This document shows, in pieces, positions 3,717 to 16,640 of a DNA stretch of 24,852 nucleotides. A program made the translations under genes and the position numbers. The notes below the pieces were generated by a model. That model saw only the letters and a list, made by a program, of their open reading frames with translations, searched no databases and had not been told where the DNA came from. Source of the DNA: a virus; IMG/VR virus record IMGVR_UViG_3300035162_000819, positions 1 through 24,852 of that record; one strand, 5' to 3'. Each line of letters starts with the position of its first letter. The stretch's first letter is position 1.

Positions 3717-6700
3717 ATGGGAAAAAAACTTATATTCGATTACACGTTCGATCCAGCAGCAAAAACGATTACGCTGGGCGATGTGTACGCGCAAAAAAGG
3801 TTCTTGTTGATAACTAACGTTACGACTGGAGACATTATATACCAGTTCAACGATAATGCGGCTGGACTGTCTAACATTACTTTTGACTACACAGATTATG
3901 ATACAACGCTCACACTAGCGTTCGACACTAGCGCCATGTCGAGTACAGACTCACTTCAAATTTTGCTGGAAGAAGAGAGTACTGACATTACGGTAAACCA
4001 ACGGTTTGTTGACCCGGTTTCAAAGATTCGCGTGTCCAACCCAGAGAACCTTATCGACACAGACTTCGAATACGGATTGCAGTCTACAAAATGGGAAACC
4101 TTAGAGCTTACTAATAACATCCCGACGTTTTTTGCCCGTAACGGGGATTTTGACATCTCAGTTGCGAGTATGGGCGTTGTTTCTGGAAGTAGCGTTGTTA
4201 CAGTTGTAACAAGCGAGGAGCATAACCTTCAAAGGGGTGCGCCTATTATTGTACAAGCCACAGGCAGTTCTTCTGCGGACGGCGGATTTGTTGTGTCTGC
4301 AATCTTGTCGGACACATCGTTTAACTACATTGCCAAGTCTTCTTTTTTGCAGACTAGAAGCATACTTGAAACTTTCACTCAGCTTTTCCCCGGATCGGTG
4401 TATTCCGGCACCGAGTTTAAGCTAACAAACATTGGCGGCATCACGACAGATGGCGCAAGCCCTAGCAATCTTACAGTCGGAACTCAATTCCCAACAGATT
4501 TTACAAATGGCACGAGCATGGCTTTGTCAAACACGTTTGCAAAGTCTACTTTGAATTTTGAAACTAGCGGCGTAGACATTGATAATATAACGGTATTAGA
4601 TACGTCATACACCTCCGCTACGCCTACGGGAGAAACAGATTTTCTTTCTTTAGGCGGGGTTTCCGCTGTTGATTGGCGAGTTGATACGAACAAGCCCGGA
4701 AATCAAATATACTTTCGAGAAGATGAACTTGTAATAGATACGGTAGCGGACACAATAACGTTTCCCACTGCTCATGGCTTTGTGAATAATGATACAGTTG
4801 TATATTTAGGGGATGCATCAACCAACACGGCGATTGGTGGCTTAGTCTATATGAACAGCTATTATGTTCAAGTAGTTGATGCTTTCACAATCCGGCTTGC
4901 TTATCTCCGCACAACTTCGACTACATACAGAATGCAGTTGTCCGGACCCGGGGTTTCGGGCGGGATTGTTAAGTCCGGTTTTGCGGCGGCTTATTGGCTT
5001 ACTTACTCTTATGCCTACAACTATAGCAGTAGTGTCTATCGGAACACTTATAATATATATACGGACGTCAGTACCTCAACGCAGACTTTCGGAATTATTG
5101 GCTACTCTCAAGCGGATAACCCCGTAATCGCTTCAAAAATTAACGGGAATGATCATCCGTTTTTTACCGAAGTTACGGGTCTCTTACAGCCTAATAACAC
5201 AAATTCCACCTACGATTATTATCTACGGTCTCGAAGTTCGAGCACTACTTACAACCGCATAATGTGGGCTTACGCTGCCACTAATAGCGGCACTACCTTC
5301 AACGGCTCCAGCACCAGTACAGACATGGCGCTGTTGCCCGTTCAGTTTAACGTAACCCCTTCTAGCTTGTGGGTTCCTAACCACGGGATTGTCACACCTA
5401 CCCCTGTCACCGTTACGGCTACCACCGGAACTCTCCCAGCCGGGTTATCCAGCGGGTCAACGTATATTGCCAACAGGTTAGATGACAATAGAATTAGCTT
5501 CACAACCACGACTGGTGCGGCCATTAGCTTTACCTCTTACGGCTCCACAAACTTAGTTTATCGGGTGCAGGGAGAGTTATCGCGGGAAACGGGTAACACT
5601 ATACAAATACCCGGAAACACGCTGTTACAGGGGGCCGCGATACAGTACAAAATTAACGGCGGAACAGCTATTGGTGGGCTTGTAGATGGAACGACCTACT
5701 TCACCGCGTTTAAAAGCAGTGATCGGTTTAAGGTTTCTACTACAGCAAATCCTTACGGAGTTGCCGAGACAATTCCTAATCAGAGTAGTTCGACATTTGC
5801 AAACACCGCCGGGAATTATCTCAGACTAAGTTCAAGTATGCCGTTTTCTGATGGTGATGCGGTGGAATATACTTCGTTAAGTCCCATTGGTGGGTTAAAT
5901 AACGGTCAAATATACTGGGCGGAACCTTGGTTCAGCATTTATATGTACCTTCACAACAGCAAAGCTGACGCAATTGCGGGATTGTCCTCAACTAGAGTTG
6001 ATCTTGTATCGCAAGGTTCGGGAAGCGGAACACTTACAAAAGTAAACATTATTGACCTTACAAGTGTCCCTTCTCCAAGCGAAACTCAAATTCTTTCTGC
6101 GGACTATGTAGGAGCGGCTGACGGAAACTATGTGGTTGCGTCTACTGCCTCGGACAATCTTTCGTTTAGTTTTAACGCGGGAAATCAGATTCAAGCTCGT
6201 ACCACTCTTGTAGATTCTCAAAACGTTTTTGTTGCGGATTTGGACGCTTTTTACATTGTAGATCACGGGTTTATTACTGGAGACAGCGTGGTCTACACAA
6301 CGTCTGGAACTACAAATATCACGGGTTTGACAAGCACCTCGACATATTATGTCATTCGCAAGAACAAAGATTTCTTGCAATTCGCTACTACACAAGAAAA
6401 CGCGACGCTGGAAACAGCCATAGCGCTTACTGAAACGGGTAGCAGCGCTACTGCTTTCACTGGCACAATAACGCTTCAACCCACAACAATTGTTGGGGGT
6501 TTCAACGGTCAGGGCACCGTTAGCTTTGCGGCGGGGGATACTACACTTAATGGAGAGGGAACATCGTTTACTTCCTATTTCAATAAAGGCGATACAATAG
6601 CTGTTAACATCCCCGAAACTGAGGCTGGACCTACTGCGTTAGTTAGTTACTCCACAAGTACGGATCAGTTTACCGCCACAGATCACGGCCTTGTTACAGG

Positions 6701-9374
6701 AAACGCTATTTACTTTTCAGGGGGGTCCGCGCCAACGAACCTTAGTTTTGGGGTGTTGTATTTTGCTAATGCACCAACGGCTAACACCTTTTCAGTTCAC
6801 TTCACGAAAACTGACGCGGACGCTGGAACCAACAAAATTGAGCTTCAAAGCCTTGGTACAACTGTCTCTGTTACAGGCATTTCATCCTCTGGCTCCGTAC
6901 ATGAAGCCAATATAGCTTATGTCAACTCAGACGGACAAATCACAACTACCAATGCGTTTCCTTCAACGGCTCAGACCAGTGTAAATTATTTGCAGACCAC
7001 ATCATTGTTGTTGCGCCCAGATGGTTTTGCGCTTCACCGACCATACGACGGCGGTGTGGAGCTAATCCCACCGACTAACCCCGACAGCCAGATGATCCGT
7101 CAGACTCGCAAATACTTCCGTTATCAATCCGGTAAAGGCATTCAAGTTTCGTTCGCGGTGAACTTTAGCCCAACTAGCCAAATCGACAACTTTTCTAGGG
7201 TCGGAGACGTTGGAACAATTAAAACTCGTTCACCTCATCGTTTAGCTTCTCAGCTTACTATCAACGTTTCAGGGTCTACCAACGGGGTCGATACGTTAGG
7301 CACTACTAATATAGGGACTGTTGTTGGGACAAATTCTGACAACGAGAACGTCTTTATTGTTGATGGAACGATAATAAGCTCTACAGAAACGTATCCTTTG
7401 TACGAAGGCCGAACATATAAGTTCGACCAAAGTGAAGCAACAAATAGTGGGCACCCTCTACGGTTTTCAGAAACCTCTGACGGCACACATGGTGGCGGGT
7501 CAGAATACACGACGGGTGTAACTATTGTTGGGACTCCCGGAACGGCGGGGGCGTACACTCAAATTGTAGTAGCTGCGGGTGCACCAACGATTTATACATA
7601 CTGCTCAAACCATAGTGGAATGGGCTTCAGCGTTCCAACTCCGGTCGATCCAGACAACAATCAGGCTAACCTTTGGAACGGCCTGCATACTGTCCTTAGT
7701 ATTATAGATGACTTTACGTTCACTGTTCAGTTGGACGGAACCCCATCAAATATTAATGCAACGGGGCTTGTTGAGTATTACGTCAACACTTGGCGGAATA
7801 GTTCTCTACGTTGCGGTCTGTATGACGATCAAAACGGAATATACTTTGAGTACGATGGCTCCGAGTTGTTCGCTTGCCGACGCAGTTCTATCTTGCAAAT
7901 AAGTGGGTATTCTAACGTAGCCTTCCGTTCAAGCGCTGTTACTGGAATTTCCACTAAGTTCCTTACTCAGCTAAATGTGGGTGATAATGTTGTCATAAAA
8001 GGCCAAAGTCACCGAATCTCAAAGATTGCCAGTGATGAGTTAATGTATATCATCCCAAGCTATAGTGGAGTAGACGCCGAAAAAGTAATTATTACGACTA
8101 CGGAAGACACCAAAACTCCGCAATCGTCTTGGAACTTAGATGTTTGTGACGGGACAGGGTACACGGGGTTTAATCTGGATATCAACAAAATTCAGATGGC
8201 GTATATAGACTATTCTTGGTACGGCGCAGGTAAAGTTCGTTTTGGGTTTAAAGATCAGCACGGGGACGTTCAGTATGTCCATAGTTTTGTGCATGGTAAC
8301 TTTAAAACTGAAGCGTACATGCGCTCTGGAAACATCCCTGCTCGGTACGAAATACAGAACATTGGTCAACCGACTTATGTTCCCGCGCTAGCGCACTGGG
8401 GTACTTCGGTTATTATGGATGGACGTTTTGACGCTGACCGTGCGTATGTGTTTAACGCCAGTTCTCCAAGCCAGACTCTTTTGGGTCAAAGCGCTGGTGG
8501 AACTCTAACCGTTAGTGGTAAAATTGAAACTACAGGGGTTTATTATCAGTACCGAGGATGGAGAAACTACCCTCAAATTGGGTACGCTCTTCGCCTAAAT
8601 TCTCCAAACGGGAATATCGGTTCTTTTGGAACGGGAACTGCTATATCTGGCGCTGGATTAACTGCGGGGACAAAGCTTGGTCTTCCATCAAGCGGGTCAG
8701 TAAGCCCGTATGCCTCGTATTTGCCGTCTATTAGCTCTCAGCAAGACCAGTCTAATTTCTCAAGCACTCGCGCGACTAGAAACCTTCTTGTATTAGACGC
8801 TCCACCCACAGTATCAAGTGGCTCCGATTCAGACTATATAATCGGAACCGCTGGACAAGACCTCAACGTCACTAAAGCATTGCCTTTAATCAGTGTGCGG
8901 CTGGCACCTTCTGTAGACACAAGCGCACCGGGATTTTTGGGTGAGCGTGAGATTATTAATCGGATGCAGTTAATTCTTAACTCTGTTGGCATCTTGTCCA
9001 CTCACGCGGTTTCAATCCAGTTGATTTTAAACGCACAGTTAAGCAACAACAATTGGGAGCGAGTTACTGCGCCCAGCTTGTCTCAGCTTATTTCTCACAC
9101 GGCGTCAGACATTATTGACGGTGGTGCCAGCGTGTACAACTTTGAGGCTCAAGGTGGTGCAGGTACGGCGGATCGTCAGCCTGTGCTTACAAACGAGGGT
9201 CTTGCAGAAGTTGCCACACTTGGTAACGCCATCTTAGGGGGGGATAACGTATACCCCGATGGACCGGATGTTTTGACAGTTGTTGCTACATTGAACGAAG
9301 ACCCGTCTGCGGTTTCTTCCACTAACCCCTTCATTATTTCAGGGCGCGTAAGTTGGTCTGAATCACAAGCATAG
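3717..9374 (+). CDS. Giant 1885-residue tail fibre/spike-type virion protein
   Basis: The largest protein of the window, very rich in Thr, Ser, Gly, Asn and Tyr. ATG 3717 follows AGGA. Residues 1-150 include an N-terminal beta domain and an IDTDFEYGLQSTKWE motif (about 112-127) that I recall from large marine phage structural proteins. Residues 167-1045 hold at least seven copies of a beta module with the signature H-G-h-x-x-G-D, then G-L and Y (listed separately). A KYFRYQSGKGIQVSFA segment (about 1137-1152) precedes an eighth module split by a cupredoxin-like insert (about 1229-1305). The region about 1480-1570 (IDYSWYGAGKVRFGFKD, EAYMRSGNIPARYE) and the last 140 residues (REIINRMQL, LGNAILGGDNVYPDGPDV) look conserved. 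A role as tail fibre, spike or peripheral virion protein is inferred. No hydrolase signature was seen. Confidence 0.8.
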   Translation: MGKKLIFDYTFDPAAKTITLGDVYAQKRFLLITNVTTGDIIYQFNDNAAGLSNITFDYTDYDTTLTLAFDTSAMSSTDSLQILLEEESTDITVNQRFVDPVSKIRVSNPENLIDTDFEYGLQSTKWETLELTNNIPTFFARNGDFDISVASMGVVSGSSVVTVVTSEEHNLQRGAPIIVQATGSSSADGGFVVSAILSDTSFNYIAKSSFLQTRSILETFTQLFPGSVYSGTEFKLTNIGGITTDGASPSNLTVGTQFPTDFTNGTSMALSNTFAKSTLNFETSGVDIDNITVLDTSYTSATPTGETDFLSLGGVSAVDWRVDTNKPGNQIYFREDELVIDTVADTITFPTAHGFVNNDTVVYLGDASTNTAIGGLVYMNSYYVQVVDAFTIRLAYLRTTSTTYRMQLSGPGVSGGIVKSGFAAAYWLTYSYAYNYSSSVYRNTYNIYTDVSTSTQTFGIIGYSQADNPVIASKINGNDHPFFTEVTGLLQPNNTNSTYDYYLRSRSSSTTYNRIMWAYAATNSGTTFNGSSTSTDMALLPVQFNVTPSSLWVPNHGIVTPTPVTVTATTGTLPAGLSSGSTYIANRLDDNRISFTTTTGAAISFTSYGSTNLVYRVQGELSRETGNTIQIPGNTLLQGAAIQYKINGGTAIGGLVDGTTYFTAFKSSDRFKVSTTANPYGVAETIPNQSSSTFANTAGNYLRLSSSMPFSDGDAVEYTSLSPIGGLNNGQIYWAEPWFSIYMYLHNSKADAIAGLSSTRVDLVSQGSGSGTLTKVNIIDLTSVPSPSETQILSADYVGAADGNYVVASTASDNLSFSFNAGNQIQARTTLVDSQNVFVADLDAFYIVDHGFITGDSVVYTTSGTTNITGLTSTSTYYVIRKNKDFLQFATTQENATLETAIALTETGSSATAFTGTITLQPTTIVGGFNGQGTVSFAAGDTTLNGEGTSFTSYFNKGDTIAVNIPETEAGPTALVSYSTSTDQFTATDHGLVTGNAIYFSGGSAPTNLSFGVLYFANAPTANTFSVHFTKTDADAGTNKIELQSLGTTVSVTGISSSGSVHEANIAYVNSDGQITTTNAFPSTAQTSVNYLQTTSLLLRPDGFALHRPYDGGVELIPPTNPDSQMIRQTRKYFRYQSGKGIQVSFAVNFSPTSQIDNFSRVGDVGTIKTRSPHRLASQLTINVSGSTNGVDTLGTTNIGTVVGTNSDNENVFIVDGTIISSTETYPLYEGRTYKFDQSEATNSGHPLRFSETSDGTHGGGSEYTTGVTIVGTPGTAGAYTQIVVAAGAPTIYTYCSNHSGMGFSVPTPVDPDNNQANLWNGLHTVLSIIDDFTFTVQLDGTPSNINATGLVEYYVNTWRNSSLRCGLYDDQNGIYFEYDGSELFACRRSSILQISGYSNVAFRSSAVTGISTKFLTQLNVGDNVVIKGQSHRISKIASDELMYIIPSYSGVDAEKVIITTTEDTKTPQSSWNLDVCDGTGYTGFNLDINKIQMAYIDYSWYGAGKVRFGFKDQHGDVQYVHSFVHGNFKTEAYMRSGNIPARYEIQNIGQPTYVPALAHWGTSVIMDGRFDADRAYVFNASSPSQTLLGQSAGGTLTVSGKIETTGVYYQYRGWRNYPQIGYALRLNSPNGNIGSFGTGTAISGAGLTAGTKLGLPSSGSVSPYASYLPSISSQQDQSNFSSTRATRNLLVLDAPPTVSSGSDSDYIIGTAGQDLNVTKALPLISVRLAPSVDTSAPGFLGEREIINRMQLILNSVGILSTHAVSIQLILNAQLSNNNWERVTAPSLSQLISHTASDIIDGGASVYNFEAQGGAGTADRQPVLTNEGLAEVATLGNAILGGDNVYPDGPDVLTVVATLNEDPSAVSSTNPFIISGRVSWSESQA
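4215..6850 (+). repeat. Seven-copy degenerate beta module in the giant fibre gene
   Basis: Protein-level repeats of roughly 50 residues occur at irregular spacing. Their anchor residues are near 167 (EEHNLQRGAPIIV), 352 (AHGFVNNDTVVY), 555 (NHGIVTPTPVTV), 630 (LLQGAAIQYKINGG), 707 (MPFSDGDAVEY), 849 (DHGFITGDSVVY) and 989 (DHGLVTGNAIYF). Most continue with G-G-L or G-L, a Tyr strand and a hydrophobic F-x-F/L strand. The repeats are not conserved at DNA level. Databases tend to label such modules as the FCCH domain of ubiquitin-activating E1 enzymes, because of fold similarity only. Confidence 0.65.
7401..7622 (+). other. Cupredoxin-like candidate copper-site segment within the fibre protein
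   Basis: Residues 1229-1302 begin YEGRTYKFDQSEA. They contain GHPLRF with His1246 and end TYCSNHSGMG with Cys1296, His1299 and Met1302. The order His, then Cys-x2-His-x2-Met about 50 residues later, is the ligand order of type 1 copper proteins such as plastocyanin and pseudoazurin. Copper binding is not shown. The segment could be a cupredoxin fold kept for structure only, but all four usual ligand types are present. Confidence 0.55.
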
Positions 9375-11387: not shown

Positions 11388-12827
11388 ATGTCAAACTTTT
11401 GGATTATTGAGACTGGAGCCGGGTCTGCTTTAGACATTTTTGAAAATGCAGGAAATGCGGTTGCCGTGGACAGTGAAAGCAACATTATAGTTGCTGGAAA
11501 TACTGAGGCAGGCGATGCCGCACTTACCGATAGCAATCAAATATTTGTGGCGAAGTATAGTCCTAAAGGCAACTTATTGTGGCAAAGAAGCCTTGGAGAT
11601 AACCCCGGAAATGAACGGGGGTACGCCGTTGATGTAAACTCTTCTAACGACATTATAGTTGGGGGGTCTACGCTTCCCGATGGCGCGGCCACGGTTCAAA
11701 CATATGCTGTAAGCTTGGATTCTGACGGCGAGTTAATATGGCAGCACTCTTTAGACACAGGTTCTTTGCAAGGTTCCATACAGGGTGTTGCTGCAAACGA
11801 ATCTGGTTTACACCCCGGAGGGGCTACTTTTGTTGGGACCGTTGGGACCGGATCGTCTCAAAGATTTATGATGTACAGATACGATCCAGCCTCTACTCCC
11901 AAGGTAATTTGGCAATATGGGTATGAACAAGACAACGTAAGCGGACGTACCGATTTTGAAGCGTTTGACGTATCTAGTGCACCTTCCACATACGCGGGAA
12001 ACCAGCTTCTTCATGCTGTTGGGTCTTACACGACTACGGCTACAGGCAGTGATTGTTTTTTTACGACCATTCAGGGCCAAAGTGGGATAGGGGGCCTAAA
12101 CGGCGCTGTAGGACTTTCTGGATCAAACACCGATAAGTTTCTTGCAGTTTCCCAGATCGGGCCGAGCCGTTATTACCTTAACACCATCTGTACGGGTTTT
12201 ACCGACAGCCCGTCTAGCGGATCGGACGAGGTTATTTTAGTCTCAAGATATACAAATATCTTTAGTGGCTATTCGTGGTCTATGGCGTTTGGGGGAAACG
12301 GCGGGAAAACGGGCCGAGGTTTAGGGGTTGCGCAAGATTCCCAAGACCGAGATACAGCTAATTCATATGTCGTAGGTTACACTCAACCAACAACTGCCGC
12401 AAACGCTACAGAAGGATATATACTTAAATTAGCACCCTCTCAAGACATGGGTTCCACTGTACCTTCGGTTCTTTGGCAAAGAAAAATAACGGCTACAGGT
12501 GTTGATAGCAACGGAGGAGCGGTTCGGTTAACCGGAGTGAAAGTTGATTATAATGGGGACGTTGTTGTTTCTGGTATAACGTCTAATGAAAGCACCATTT
12601 CGACTGGAGAGTCTAACGTGTTTGTAGCCAAGCTTCCTAGCGACGGATCAGGAACAGGTACTTTTGGACGTTTTACATATGCGGCTGAAAGTCTGTACGT
12701 CAACACTTCTCCCGGACTATACAATGTTGGGATGGGTATTTACAACCCTGACGCTCAAACGTATTCAGAAGCCGCCGTTCCAACTCTTGAAAACGACGAC
12801 ACTTCTCAGTTTACCGTGGTGGAATAA
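11388..12827 (+). CDS. Beta-propeller virion protein, copy 1
   Basis: This 479-residue protein starts at ATG 11388 after GGGAG. It is built of repeated blades of the type seen in SBBP (seven-bladed propeller) proteins: A-V-D-S-x-x-N-I-I-V-A-G followed by an I-F-V-A-K-Y strand and a G-x-L-L-W-Q-R strand. Clear copies are at residues 24-70 and 79-122, and later ones contain LWQRKI, DYNGDVVVSGITS and NVFVAKLPSDG. Central copies are more diverged. The last 50 residues (about 430-479) leave the blade pattern. The protein is probably exposed on tail or fibre and may bind a host glycan or protein; propellers are common ligand-binding folds. It shares blades and the KLPSDGS end with the next gene, so the two are paralogues. 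Confidence 0.75.
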   Translation: MSNFWIIETGAGSALDIFENAGNAVAVDSESNIIVAGNTEAGDAALTDSNQIFVAKYSPKGNLLWQRSLGDNPGNERGYAVDVNSSNDIIVGGSTLPDGAATVQTYAVSLDSDGELIWQHSLDTGSLQGSIQGVAANESGLHPGGATFVGTVGTGSSQRFMMYRYDPASTPKVIWQYGYEQDNVSGRTDFEAFDVSSAPSTYAGNQLLHAVGSYTTTATGSDCFFTTIQGQSGIGGLNGAVGLSGSNTDKFLAVSQIGPSRYYLNTICTGFTDSPSSGSDEVILVSRYTNIFSGYSWSMAFGGNGGKTGRGLGVAQDSQDRDTANSYVVGYTQPTTAANATEGYILKLAPSQDMGSTVPSVLWQRKITATGVDSNGGAVRLTGVKVDYNGDVVVSGITSNESTISTGESNVFVAKLPSDGSGTGTFGRFTYAAESLYVNTSPGLYNVGMGIYNPDAQTYSEAAVPTLENDDTSQFTVVE

Positions 12828-12829
12828 TT

Positions 12830-14242
12830 ATGTCTCAAAGCAAAAAAATGTTAATGGCGGCGGCAGGTTCTGGAGGAGAAAATGGGTGGTTTCGCACTTG
12901 GGGGACACTCAAGATCAACCGGAAACAAAAGGTAGCTTCAGACGCTTCTGGAAATATTTATAGTGTAGGTTATTCAGAGAGTTTGAATACGACTTCAACG
13001 GATTTTGTTACAGAAGGTGTTATAACGAAGCATACCAAGGATGGAGAGCTTCAGTGGGAACGATACTTTGCCCTTAGAGCAACCCCTGTTACATCCTTTA
13101 AAACATTTTTTAACGATTTAGATTTTGATTCTTCTGGAAATATTGCTTGCTTTGGTTACGATCAATCACGTTCTAACTCTAACGGGACTGACATTTTCTG
13201 TGTTAAGTACAACCCAGCAGGCGATAAGGTGTTTGATGTTTCATTTGTGTCACCTCCCAACCAACAAGGGATATATATATCCGCCGGGAAAATAGATACT
13301 TCCGATGATAGTATCTACTTTGCGGGGTCTCGACGTAATGGGGACAGTTTTTCTGCAACTGATGCTTACTTAGCAAAAGTAAATTCTGACGGAACATCTA
13401 TTACTTGGGCTAGAAAGCTAGAAACTTCAAGAAGAAATGCAACTCTTTATGATATTACTTTAGACTCGTCTGGCAATGTTATTGGCGTTGGGTTAGTGAA
13501 TACTAACAACAGTGGCGAGGCGATTTTAGTAAAATATAATTCCAGCGGTGTTTTGCAGTGGCAAAGAAAAGTAGACGGAGGCAGTAAAATTGTCTTTGAG
13601 GGCGTTATAACCGATTCTTCTGGCAATATTTATGTTACAGGCGATTCTTCGAGGGGTTCTCCAGAGTTCACCGGGTTGATTGTACTTAAGTACAACTCTA
13701 GTGGGGTTTTACAATGGAAACGCCGTGTTGATGCAACTTCCGGGAGCATCAGTCCAGAAGGCAAGGGCATTGTTTTTGCCCCGGATGGAACCCTTATCAT
13801 ATCGGGTTACTTAGGGTGGATTAGTCCAACACAAGCTTACGCCTACGGCGGCTACATACTTAACATGGACACGAACGGAAACTTTATTTACGACCGCGCT
13901 TTTGGTGGCACTCAGTACCTTAATCTTGGCAGAACATTTTTCAATGGAGTTACCGTACAAGGGGGTAGTATGGTTCACGTTGGAGAAACATCTATTCCAT
14001 CTGACAAAGAGCAATCAAGCTCTTTTGAATATGATTTCTTAGCTGTAAAACTTCCGGTTGATGGGTCTTTGACGGGTACTTATAGAACGAACTATATATA
14101 TGAGCCTGTTGGTCTTTCGGTGATTCCCGATGGTATGACCGATAGTGCGGGAGATTTAACAGATTCTGGGAGTAGTTTGACTTTTGCGTCACTTGGCTCC
14201 CCCCCAAACTTTGAAATCTACAACCGCCTTACTGTAATATAG
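12830..14242 (+). CDS. Beta-propeller virion protein, copy 2
   Basis: This 470-residue protein starts two bases after the stop of its paralogue, with only a weak ribosome site, so re-initiation is likely. The N-terminus MLMAAAGSGGENGW is hydrophobic then Gly-rich and is not a convincing signal peptide. Blades with D-x-S-G-N-I-Y-x-x-G, an h-x-x-K-Y-N-S-S-G strand and a V-L-Q-W-x-R strand recur, most clearly at about residues 36-80, 210-250 and 262-303. Two neighbouring blades both contain KYNSSGVLQW, which suggests recent blade duplication. The C-terminal part (about 430-470) changes to PDGMTDSAGDLTDSGSS and ends EIYNRLTVI. The likely role is as for copy 1: an exposed appendage or receptor-binding component. 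Different loop sequences may give different specificity. Confidence 0.75.
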   Translation: MSQSKKMLMAAAGSGGENGWFRTWGTLKINRKQKVASDASGNIYSVGYSESLNTTSTDFVTEGVITKHTKDGELQWERYFALRATPVTSFKTFFNDLDFDSSGNIACFGYDQSRSNSNGTDIFCVKYNPAGDKVFDVSFVSPPNQQGIYISAGKIDTSDDSIYFAGSRRNGDSFSATDAYLAKVNSDGTSITWARKLETSRRNATLYDITLDSSGNVIGVGLVNTNNSGEAILVKYNSSGVLQWQRKVDGGSKIVFEGVITDSSGNIYVTGDSSRGSPEFTGLIVLKYNSSGVLQWKRRVDATSGSISPEGKGIVFAPDGTLIISGYLGWISPTQAYAYGGYILNMDTNGNFIYDRAFGGTQYLNLGRTFFNGVTVQGGSMVHVGETSIPSDKEQSSSFEYDFLAVKLPVDGSLTGTYRTNYIYEPVGLSVIPDGMTDSAGDLTDSGSSLTFASLGSPPNFEIYNRLTVI

Positions 14243-14720: not shown

Positions 14721-16640
14721 ATGCCCTTACAAAAACTCCAATTTCGACCCGGGATCAATAAAGAAACCACTTCGTACACTAACGAGGGAGGGTGGCTGGA
14801 CTGTGATAAGGTTCGTTTCCGCGCGGGGCTTCCTGAGAAGATCGGCGGATGGAGCAAGCTTGGAAATAACTCTTTTTTAGGTTCGGCTCGTTCGCTTCAT
14901 CCTTGGAGTAGCTTGGAATTAGATAACTTCTTGGGTCTTGGTACAAGCTCAAAATATTACATAGAATCTGGGCAAGCTTTCTATGACATAACTCCTATTC
15001 GCGCTACAACTACGGCGGGAGACGTTACTTTTGTTGCGGCATCTGGTTCTTCTATATTGAACGTTTTAAACACGGATCACGGGGCGACACCGGGAGATTT
15101 TGTTACTTTTACTAATGCGGTGGGTCTTGGAGGAAACATTACTGCGGATGTTCTAAACCAAGAATACCTTGTGGATACTGTAGTAGACTCCGGTACTTAC
15201 ACCATTCGCGCTAGATCAGTGCAAACGTTGTCTGAAATAACCGTTGACGGTCAGTACGATCCTATTCTCGTTGTAGCCGCAGCGGGGGATACTGGAGACG
15301 GGGGAGCCGCTACAGTCGGAGCGTATCAAGTCAACGTTGGCTTGGACACCACTGTACTTGGCACTGGATGGGGTGCGGGAACGTGGGGCACTGTTGGTTG
15401 GGGATTAGCCGCAAGTCTAGGTGTTGCGAGTTTACTTCGAATATGGACGCAAGACAATTTTGGACAAGACCTTATATATAATGTGGAAGACGGCGGTATT
15501 TTTTATTGGTCGGCGTCAATAGCTTCACCATTGAATTCGCGTGGCGTTGCGTTGAATACTCTTGCTGGAGCAAGTGGCGCTCCAACAATTGCTAGGAAAG
15601 TAATTGTTTCAGATGTTGATAGACATGTAATAGCTTTTGGCGCAGACCCTGCTGACAACATTGGAACTCAAGACCCGCTTCTTATTCGATTTTCAGATCA
15701 AGAAAACCCTGCGGACTGGACACCTTCTGCAACCAACACAGCAGGAGACCTCCGCTTGGGGTCTGGCTCTAGGATTGTTACAGCGGTAGAGACCCGTCAA
15801 CAGATGCTTGTTTTTACAGACGTTTCTGTTCACGCTATGCAGTATGTTGGACCACCGTTTACGTTCGGTATTAATATGATTTCCGAAAATACAACAATAC
15901 GAAGCGGCTCCTCTGCAATCGCGGTTGATGATGCTGTTTATTGGATGGGTAAAAACGAGTTTTACGCTTATAACGGTGGGATTCAAAAACTTCCTTGCTC
16001 TGTGCGAGATTATGTTTTTTCTAACTTTAACTCTTCTCAATCTGAAAAAGTTTTTGCAGCATCAAACACGGCTTTTTCAGAGATTTGGTGGTTTTACCCT
16101 TCGGATTCTTCAGAAGACCTTAATCGTTATGTTGTTTTTAATTACGTTCAGCAAATATGGTATGTTGGAACTTTAGACCGAACGGCTTGGACAGACCGTG
16201 GGGTTAACGATTTGCCTATCGCCGCAAGCAATGATGGGTATTTATACACGCATGAAACGGGTTTTGATGACGGAAGCACTAATCCGCCTTCGCCTATAAG
16301 TTCATATGTTGAATCTAGTCAAATAGATATCGGAGAAGGTGACAAGTTTCTTTTTGTAAACAGGCTAATACCGGACCTGACTTTTAGAAACTCTACTGCT
16401 ATTGGACCTGCGGTTGATTTTACGTTAAAGACCCGAAACGCTCCCGGCGGAGCTTACTTGCAAGAAAACTTTAAACCTGTGGAAAAGAGTACCTCCGTAC
16501 CCGTCGAGCAATTTACTGAAGATGTCCATGTAAGGCTTAGAGGTAGGTCGGTTGCAATAAAAATTGAAAACAATACCACTGGTGTTGGGTGGCGTCTTGG
16601 GTCTCCTCGGATTGATATACGCCCTGATGGGAGAAGATAA
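14721..16640 (+). CDS. Nozzle/tail-hub-like protein, P22 gp10-related type (probable)
   Basis: This 639-residue protein starts with LQFRPGINKETTSYTNEGGW and then KVRFRAGLPEKIGGW, the N-terminal signature of a family common in marine podoviruses and resembling P22 gp10 (packaged-DNA stabilisation and tail hub). Residues about 97-167 form an inserted beta module with TDHGATPGDFVTF, the same type as in the giant fibre. Residues 216-228 hold a triple Trp-Gly motif. The C-terminal two thirds have propeller-like strands (FGADPADN, ENPADWTPSATNTAGDLRL, YWMGKNEFYAYNGG, EIWWFYPSDS) and end SPRIDIRPDGRR. It would sit below the adaptors and close the DNA channel. Its stop overlaps the next start (TAATG). 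The closest alternatives are T7 gp12-like nozzle proteins; fold similarity cannot be checked here. Confidence 0.68.
   Translation: MPLQKLQFRPGINKETTSYTNEGGWLDCDKVRFRAGLPEKIGGWSKLGNNSFLGSARSLHPWSSLELDNFLGLGTSSKYYIESGQAFYDITPIRATTTAGDVTFVAASGSSILNVLNTDHGATPGDFVTFTNAVGLGGNITADVLNQEYLVDTVVDSGTYTIRARSVQTLSEITVDGQYDPILVVAAAGDTGDGGAATVGAYQVNVGLDTTVLGTGWGAGTWGTVGWGLAASLGVASLLRIWTQDNFGQDLIYNVEDGGIFYWSASIASPLNSRGVALNTLAGASGAPTIARKVIVSDVDRHVIAFGADPADNIGTQDPLLIRFSDQENPADWTPSATNTAGDLRLGSGSRIVTAVETRQQMLVFTDVSVHAMQYVGPPFTFGINMISENTTIRSGSSAIAVDDAVYWMGKNEFYAYNGGIQKLPCSVRDYVFSNFNSSQSEKVFAASNTAFSEIWWFYPSDSSEDLNRYVVFNYVQQIWYVGTLDRTAWTDRGVNDLPIAASNDGYLYTHETGFDDGSTNPPSPISSYVESSQIDIGEGDKFLFVNRLIPDLTFRNSTAIGPAVDFTLKTRNAPGGAYLQENFKPVEKSTSVPVEQFTEDVHVRLRGRSVAIKIENNTTGVGWRLGSPRIDIRPDGRR
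15366..15404 (+). other. Trp-Gly triple motif in the nozzle-like protein
   Basis: Residues 216-228 read GWGAGTWGTVGWG, with Trp at 217, 222 and 227. The spacing of five between Trp residues is identical to the motif at 9534-9572. Confidence 0.7.

Follow-up and report, generated by a model that had tools for sequence, protein, structure and literature searches.

Cupredoxins are known as electron carriers and as domains of enzymes, and we know of none that has been described in a virus particle. The viral DNA analysed here (IMG/VR record IMGVR_UViG_3300035162_000819, positions 1 to 24,852; this whole stretch of 24,852 bases is called the window) raises the question of whether such a domain is built into a phage fibre-type protein. 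The original prediction had placed His1246, Cys1296, His1299 and Met1302 of an encoded 1885-residue protein in a type 1 (blue) copper site; the residue numbers and codons were verified. The explanation that we favour, with a probability of about 0.7 for the explanation as a whole, is that residues ~1188–1311 are a self-contained cupredoxin with an amicyanin-type loop, present as a mobile insert in the fibre-type protein of a marine podovirus-like phage and most likely binding one copper in a type 1-like site. Within this explanation the best-supported step is the identification of the domain as a cupredoxin whose metal site works, copper being the most likely metal.

Positions 7401–7622 translate to YEGRTYKF...GHPLRF...YTYCSNHSGM. 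The first His is followed by Cys, His and a candidate axial Met, which is the predicted type 1 order and is shared, together with the predicted β-sandwich, by amicyanin, plastocyanin and pseudoazurin (PF00127). The predicted order stands, but in spacing the loop is of the amicyanin type, C-x2-H-x2-M (compared with HCTPHPFM in PDB 1aac), rather than of the plastocyanin type. Plastocyanin (PHNIVF) does share the aromatic residue four positions after the first His. The C..H..M pattern alone arises in 0.035% of 20,000 shuffles, none of which also has H...[FLIV] in a fitting place upstream; the ligand pattern is not due to chance, since this wider pattern recurs across hundreds of viral contigs. 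A fifth ligand, His1258 (GTHGGG), was weighed and rejected, since this residue is Trp in some phages and missing from several relatives.

Viral contigs, marine genomes and phage isolates yielded a set of 300 distinct domains, some of which were found with queries lacking all four residues. All four ligands are present in 276 of the 300; two have Leu for Met alone, one combines this change with Asp at the first His, 16 lack both Cys and the second His, and the remaining five are cut or gapped at ligand columns. Natural type 1 sites, too, are known with Leu in the axial place of Met. Cys and the second His occur together in 279 domains, are both missing from 16 and are never found singly; such whole-or-nothing retention is what a metal site predicts. 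Scans that were blind to the ligands, each with a single ligand-free query, gave complete sets in 49 of 51, 56 of 64 and 31 of 32 domains. By entropy the four ligand columns rank 1, 5, 7 and 12 of 115, the first His being the most conserved column. Both synonymous codons are found at Cys and at each His, and therefore selection acts on the residues; the ligands persist at ~35% identity, bacterial proteins included, and are under joint selection within the family. The original prediction would have failed had Cys or the two His varied freely among homologues, and they do not.

The fold was approached by structure prediction. The best AlphaFold2 model of the window domain, built with 43 relatives, has a predicted local distance difference test score (pLDDT) of 91.5 and a predicted template modelling score of 0.84, and its predicted fold is that of cupredoxins, the family with which the original prediction had asked for a comparison. 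Both this model and that of a relative from Woeseiaceae (L123, modelled separately, pLDDT 82.3) are predicted to be Greek-key β-sandwiches. In model numbering the first His is residue 52, immediately ahead of strand 54–57, Cys102 ends strand 98–102, and His105 and Met108 come after it, as in cupredoxins. Laccases, rusticyanin and pseudoazurin are prominent in the Foldseek list of PDB entries for the window model. In VIA-align all top 50 rows are copper proteins of cupredoxin fold, laccases and rusticyanin among them, the best row being the cupredoxin domain at the N-terminus of nitrite reductase from Hyphomicrobium denitrificans [Z 8.7, root mean square deviation (r.m.s.d.) 3.0, 104 aligned residues]. 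Independently predicted viral models match far better, including an S-TIM5 virion structural protein (template modelling score 0.85, r.m.s.d. 1.9) and gp9-type baseplate connectors. Small ‘beta-sandwich proteins’ (124–169 residues) of Marseillevirus LCMAC201 and Pithovirus LCPAC302 also resemble the domain fold (E ~5e-5).

The bacterial relatives supply a link to known families. The Woeseiaceae sequence scores 25.1 bits against PF00127 Copper-bind (cut-off 21.2), its best PDB sequence matches are plastocyanins (E 0.003), and the Foldseek list of its model is rich in plastocyanins and amicyanins; in VIA-align nitrite reductase, rusticyanin, plastocyanin and pseudoazurin lead, with modest Z values of at most 7.2. 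PF00127 is matched at E up to 0.05 by 11 of 32 relatives. An hhalign comparison shows plain homology between the phage profile and the bacterial one (probability 100, E 1e-53), and the mixed profile A6, when searched against the PDB, found weak matches to various proteins, plastocyanin included. In predicted fold and in the order, spacing and selection of its ligands the domain agrees with the type 1 copper cupredoxins, which it would resemble in action and from which it probably descends.

Several observations weigh against this explanation. The remaining four of the five AlphaFold2 models reach only 75–80 pLDDT, no match of the window model in the PDB reaches E 0.001 in Foldseek, the VIA-align Z values are near the scores of merely common arrangements, and a Pfam search with the window domain alone gave no match. 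As the ligand losses show, there are phages in which the fold serves without the site. Moreover, the domain has a long, strongly conserved segment, GTHGGGSEYTTGVT...GTPG..GAYTQI, which to our knowledge is lacking in ordinary cupredoxins; because it is both conserved and lacking there, the real function may reside in this segment. Among the losses are a lineage in P-RSM6, S-WAM1 and S-SZBM1, the small PSS2 protein and second copies in proteins of S-CAM22 and P-SSM7. When the ligand columns are left out of the tree, parsimony explains the 16 losses by five changes, but this tree is weakly supported and its well-supported branches force only one change. Relatives that keep the fold with Cys and the second His gone (L145, L147, L160, L155, L156, L254, L304 and the second copies in L154 and L157) are natural controls without the site, with for example YAEPAVPN in place of YCxNHSGM.

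The original prediction had located the site inside a tail fibre-type protein; within this protein the domain is a separable insert. Its closest relative among phages is ctQRb9, whose genome comes from Manatee Spring and which has an orthologue of 1736 residues that is collinear with the window protein (36–38% identity over its length by blastp; 57% over the last 577 residues by tblastn). In a global alignment exactly residues 1188–1311 are missing from it, with good matches on either side. A second relative, S-BM3, has no match to the domain profile. The domain is therefore a module that comes and goes and does not belong to the basic fibre protein.

The original prediction had pointed to similar GHPLRF and YCxNHSGMG segments in other marine phages, and they are real; it had held a redox-active or metal-binding site on a tail appendage to be unusual, whereas the domain proves widespread. 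It occurs in at least 590 confirmed viral-contig matches and in 67 of 50,697 phage records, nearly all of them marine cyanophages, pelagiphages or marine Methylophilales phages. Another 57 contigs come from a genome collection, nearly all of them marine metagenome-assembled genomes and single cells: some copies are phage genes within single-cell assemblies, others are C-terminal domains of bacterial lipoproteins (signal with ACGGGG) in SAR86 and Woeseiaceae. Of these lipoproteins (L123:4387-6267, L127:4621-6333, L114, L106, L126), some have the domain behind cadherin-like repeats. The phage proteins that carry it are unrelated to one another and include structural proteins of S-TIM5, podovirus tail fibres and T4-like baseplate or fibre proteins. 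The isolates P-HM1 and HTVC028P have it as well, and so does S-SCSM1, for which proteomics of the virion lists 45 proteins. Judged from these sequences, the module is a mobile one, shared between structural and tail proteins of marine phages and lipoproteins of marine bacteria.

In T4-like cyanophages the gp9-like baseplate wedge tail fibre connector has a shorter, diverged form of the domain at its C-terminus. This form is matched in 336 phage records, mostly cyanophage, and has all four ligands in 46 of 46 distinct, closely related copies (scan without Cys, second His and Met). It carries the sequence HPFRIQS...YYQCTIHALM (S-CAM22 gp9, L154:195-1415; also L157, L159, L161 and L372–L451). Elsewhere, three phage proteins (L033, L043, L051) each have two tandem copies of the domain with complete ligands in both, and a protein of P-HM2 and P-HM1 (L149, L151) contains two different cupredoxin-like domains, the second of which (YYYQCSNHGGMIGTITV) is more like a classical cupredoxin.

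The rival that survives best, though we think it improbable, is that the site binds a metal without being blue copper: zinc, another ion, or copper held by Cys, His, His and Met as a structural lock that stiffens the domain. Such a metal would give the same-looking selection on the ligands. Cells keep free copper very low, so that zinc could load first. Metal as a stabiliser of the fold is established in phage fibres, where the HxH motifs of T4 gp37 are reported to bind iron (PMC11705849; compare the ‘Ferrojan Horse’ hypothesis). The window domain shares with those fibres a metal site, here predicted, on a marine phage appendage, possibly for attachment, but where gp37 has HxH iron sites it has a Cys-His2-Met site in a β-sandwich, and no HxH motif occurs in residues 1188–1311, the segment of the 1885-residue protein that was inspected for it. 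A single Cys with Met is an unusual zinc set, the retained Met, replaced by Leu only, fits type 1 copper better than zinc, and the proteins that match the fold are copper proteins.

Slightly less probable still is an adhesion module, cupredoxin-derived or an immunoglobulin (Ig)-like β-sandwich, in which the ligand residues are kept for packing and no metal is bound. Some cyanophage copies are annotated immunoglobulin (a PF07686 note in P-HM1 and P-HM2; also MED4-213), which is understandable given that YYYC resembles the YYC motif of Ig domains; the only PDB sequence matches of the phage profile A1 are weak ones to antibody V domains; and degenerate copies of the domain persist without ligands. 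Two Cys are required for an Ig disulphide, and of the 279 ligand-bearing domains 276 have just one. Packing residues would vary singly, whereas Cys and the second His are always lost jointly, as expected of a joint site, and the retention of the ligands in distant relatives, bacterial proteins included, also argues against packing. An Ig V-set domain proper (PF07686) was rejected, the window domain and those 276 having one Cys where an inter-sheet disulphide is expected. Ig-like domains in phage structural proteins are mobile β-sandwich modules that are found across unrelated virion proteins and are present or absent between orthologues. The cupredoxin-like domain has the same scattered pattern, but it differs from them in having no disulphide and a conserved copper-type ligand set.

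There is very little probability that the Cys is a redox or cross-linking thiol, joining fibre subunits or reacting with the host surface, with His and Met tuning it and no stable metal. That each domain has a single Cys while the protein is otherwise poor in Cys (four in all 1885 residues) is in keeping with it, but it leaves unexplained the joint conservation of the distant first His, the axial Met/Leu pattern and the match to copper proteins. A chance arrangement of His, Cys, His and Met in a large fibre protein is refuted by conservation, hundreds of relatives keeping the ligands, as well as by the shuffles, and may be set aside.

The cupredoxin explanation also sets the domain apart from known copper proteins. 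Cupredoxins of PF00127 are free electron carriers, whereas the phage form is a domain within a virion protein, has an additional conserved stretch that separates the first His from the Cys, and falls below the Pfam cut-off. The N-domain of the H. denitrificans nitrite reductase and the two-domain laccases likewise use a cupredoxin as a module of a larger protein, but these are enzymes with catalytic copper partners, and no such partner was recognised for the phage domain. Cyanophage plastocyanin (petE, an auxiliary metabolic gene) is a free host-derived electron carrier; it too is phage-encoded with type 1 copper ligands, and differs in not being part of a virion protein.

The carrier protein matches the ‘virion structural protein’ families PHROG 5838 (E 2e-158) and PHROG 1645 (E 7e-36), and with its last 577 residues it finds virion structural proteins in 172 phage records, chiefly cyanophages; a Pfam search of the full protein gave nothing useful. 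All main genes of the window lie on the + strand, and its PHROG matches comprise virion structural, tail fibre, tail fibre assembly and DNA ejection proteins. The domain would be placed on a tail appendage. The 639-residue protein encoded at 14721–16640 has its closest relatives in podovirus-like phages of ~60 kb, such as Pelagibacter phages HTVC023P and HTVC027P, phage 023Pt_psg01 and Roseobacter phage CRP-901, and some of these relatives are annotated phage stabilization protein. This makes it probable that the window comes from a larger genome of that type. The neighbouring genes 11388–12827 and 12830–14242 match parts of PHROG 8510 in swapped order (252–373, then 46–243), as if one larger protein had been split and rearranged. 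Adjacent small proteins at 209–481 and 494–781 both match PHROG 28102 and are probably a tandem duplication.

Coordinates in the window of the carrier gene, the candidate copper domain and its putative ligands, and the following genes
Feature	Position	Strand	Basis
Carrier of the domain, 1885-residue virion structural/fibre-type protein	3717..9374	+	open reading frame with ATG
Inserted segment, residues 1188–1311 (124 residues)	7278..7649	+	exactly absent in Podoviridae ctQRb9 orthologue, flanks collinear
Cupredoxin-like domain core, residues 1206–1306	7332..7634	+	alignment A1, AlphaFold2 model, fold searches
His1246, candidate ligand 1 (GHPLRF)	7452..7454	+	H in 291/300 domains; most conserved column
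Cys1296, candidate thiolate ligand	7602..7604	+	C in 279/295; sole Cys of the domain in 276/279
His1299, candidate ligand 3	7611..7613	+	H in 279/296; retained or lost with Cys every time
Met1302, candidate axial ligand	7620..7622	+	M in 278/297; Leu the sole substitute in ligand-bearing domains, 3/279
Next gene, 340 residues	9384..10406	+	no family found; Pfam and PHROG without match
Tail fibre-like protein, 319 residues	10416..11375	+	PHROG 7760 and 9017 tail fiber protein, E ~1e-14

As to how the site would be used, the domain may reach its fold without metal, as a pre-organised apo-domain in the cytosol of the host, take up copper upon lysis or in seawater, and then be displayed metal-loaded on the particle. 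There it would most likely serve adhesion and stability as a rigid β-sandwich, and the metal site with its conserved surroundings could dock to, or react with, a partner on the host surface or in the periplasm. A role in attachment or particle stability is favoured over catalysis because the domain sits on virion proteins without a recognisable redox partner. Electron exchange with the host periplasm is possible, as is copper-dependent docking to a host envelope protein, by analogy with the iron ‘Trojan Horse’ idea (PMC11705849). A more tentative and still doubtful extension is that marine tailed phages as a group have copper-loaded, redox-active type 1 sites on their particles, as the mobile module of structural and fibre proteins and as the C-terminal domain of gp9 in cyanophages. 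These sites would help the phage to attach or to trigger, for instance through exchange of electrons with the host envelope or through copper-dependent docking to it.

No description of a cupredoxin or plastocyanin-like domain in a phage virion was found in the openly licensed papers that were searched. Its presence in hundreds of ocean phages suggests that many marine virus particles display an undescribed candidate copper site of redox type. The explanation gives a testable name to an abundant marine phage domain whose present annotations are hypothetical, tail fibre or immunoglobulin-like. Should the sites be filled, the particles of marine phages would be copper ligands and possibly redox devices, with a bearing on attachment, on particle lifetime in sunlit seawater and on the trace-metal chemistry of the ocean.

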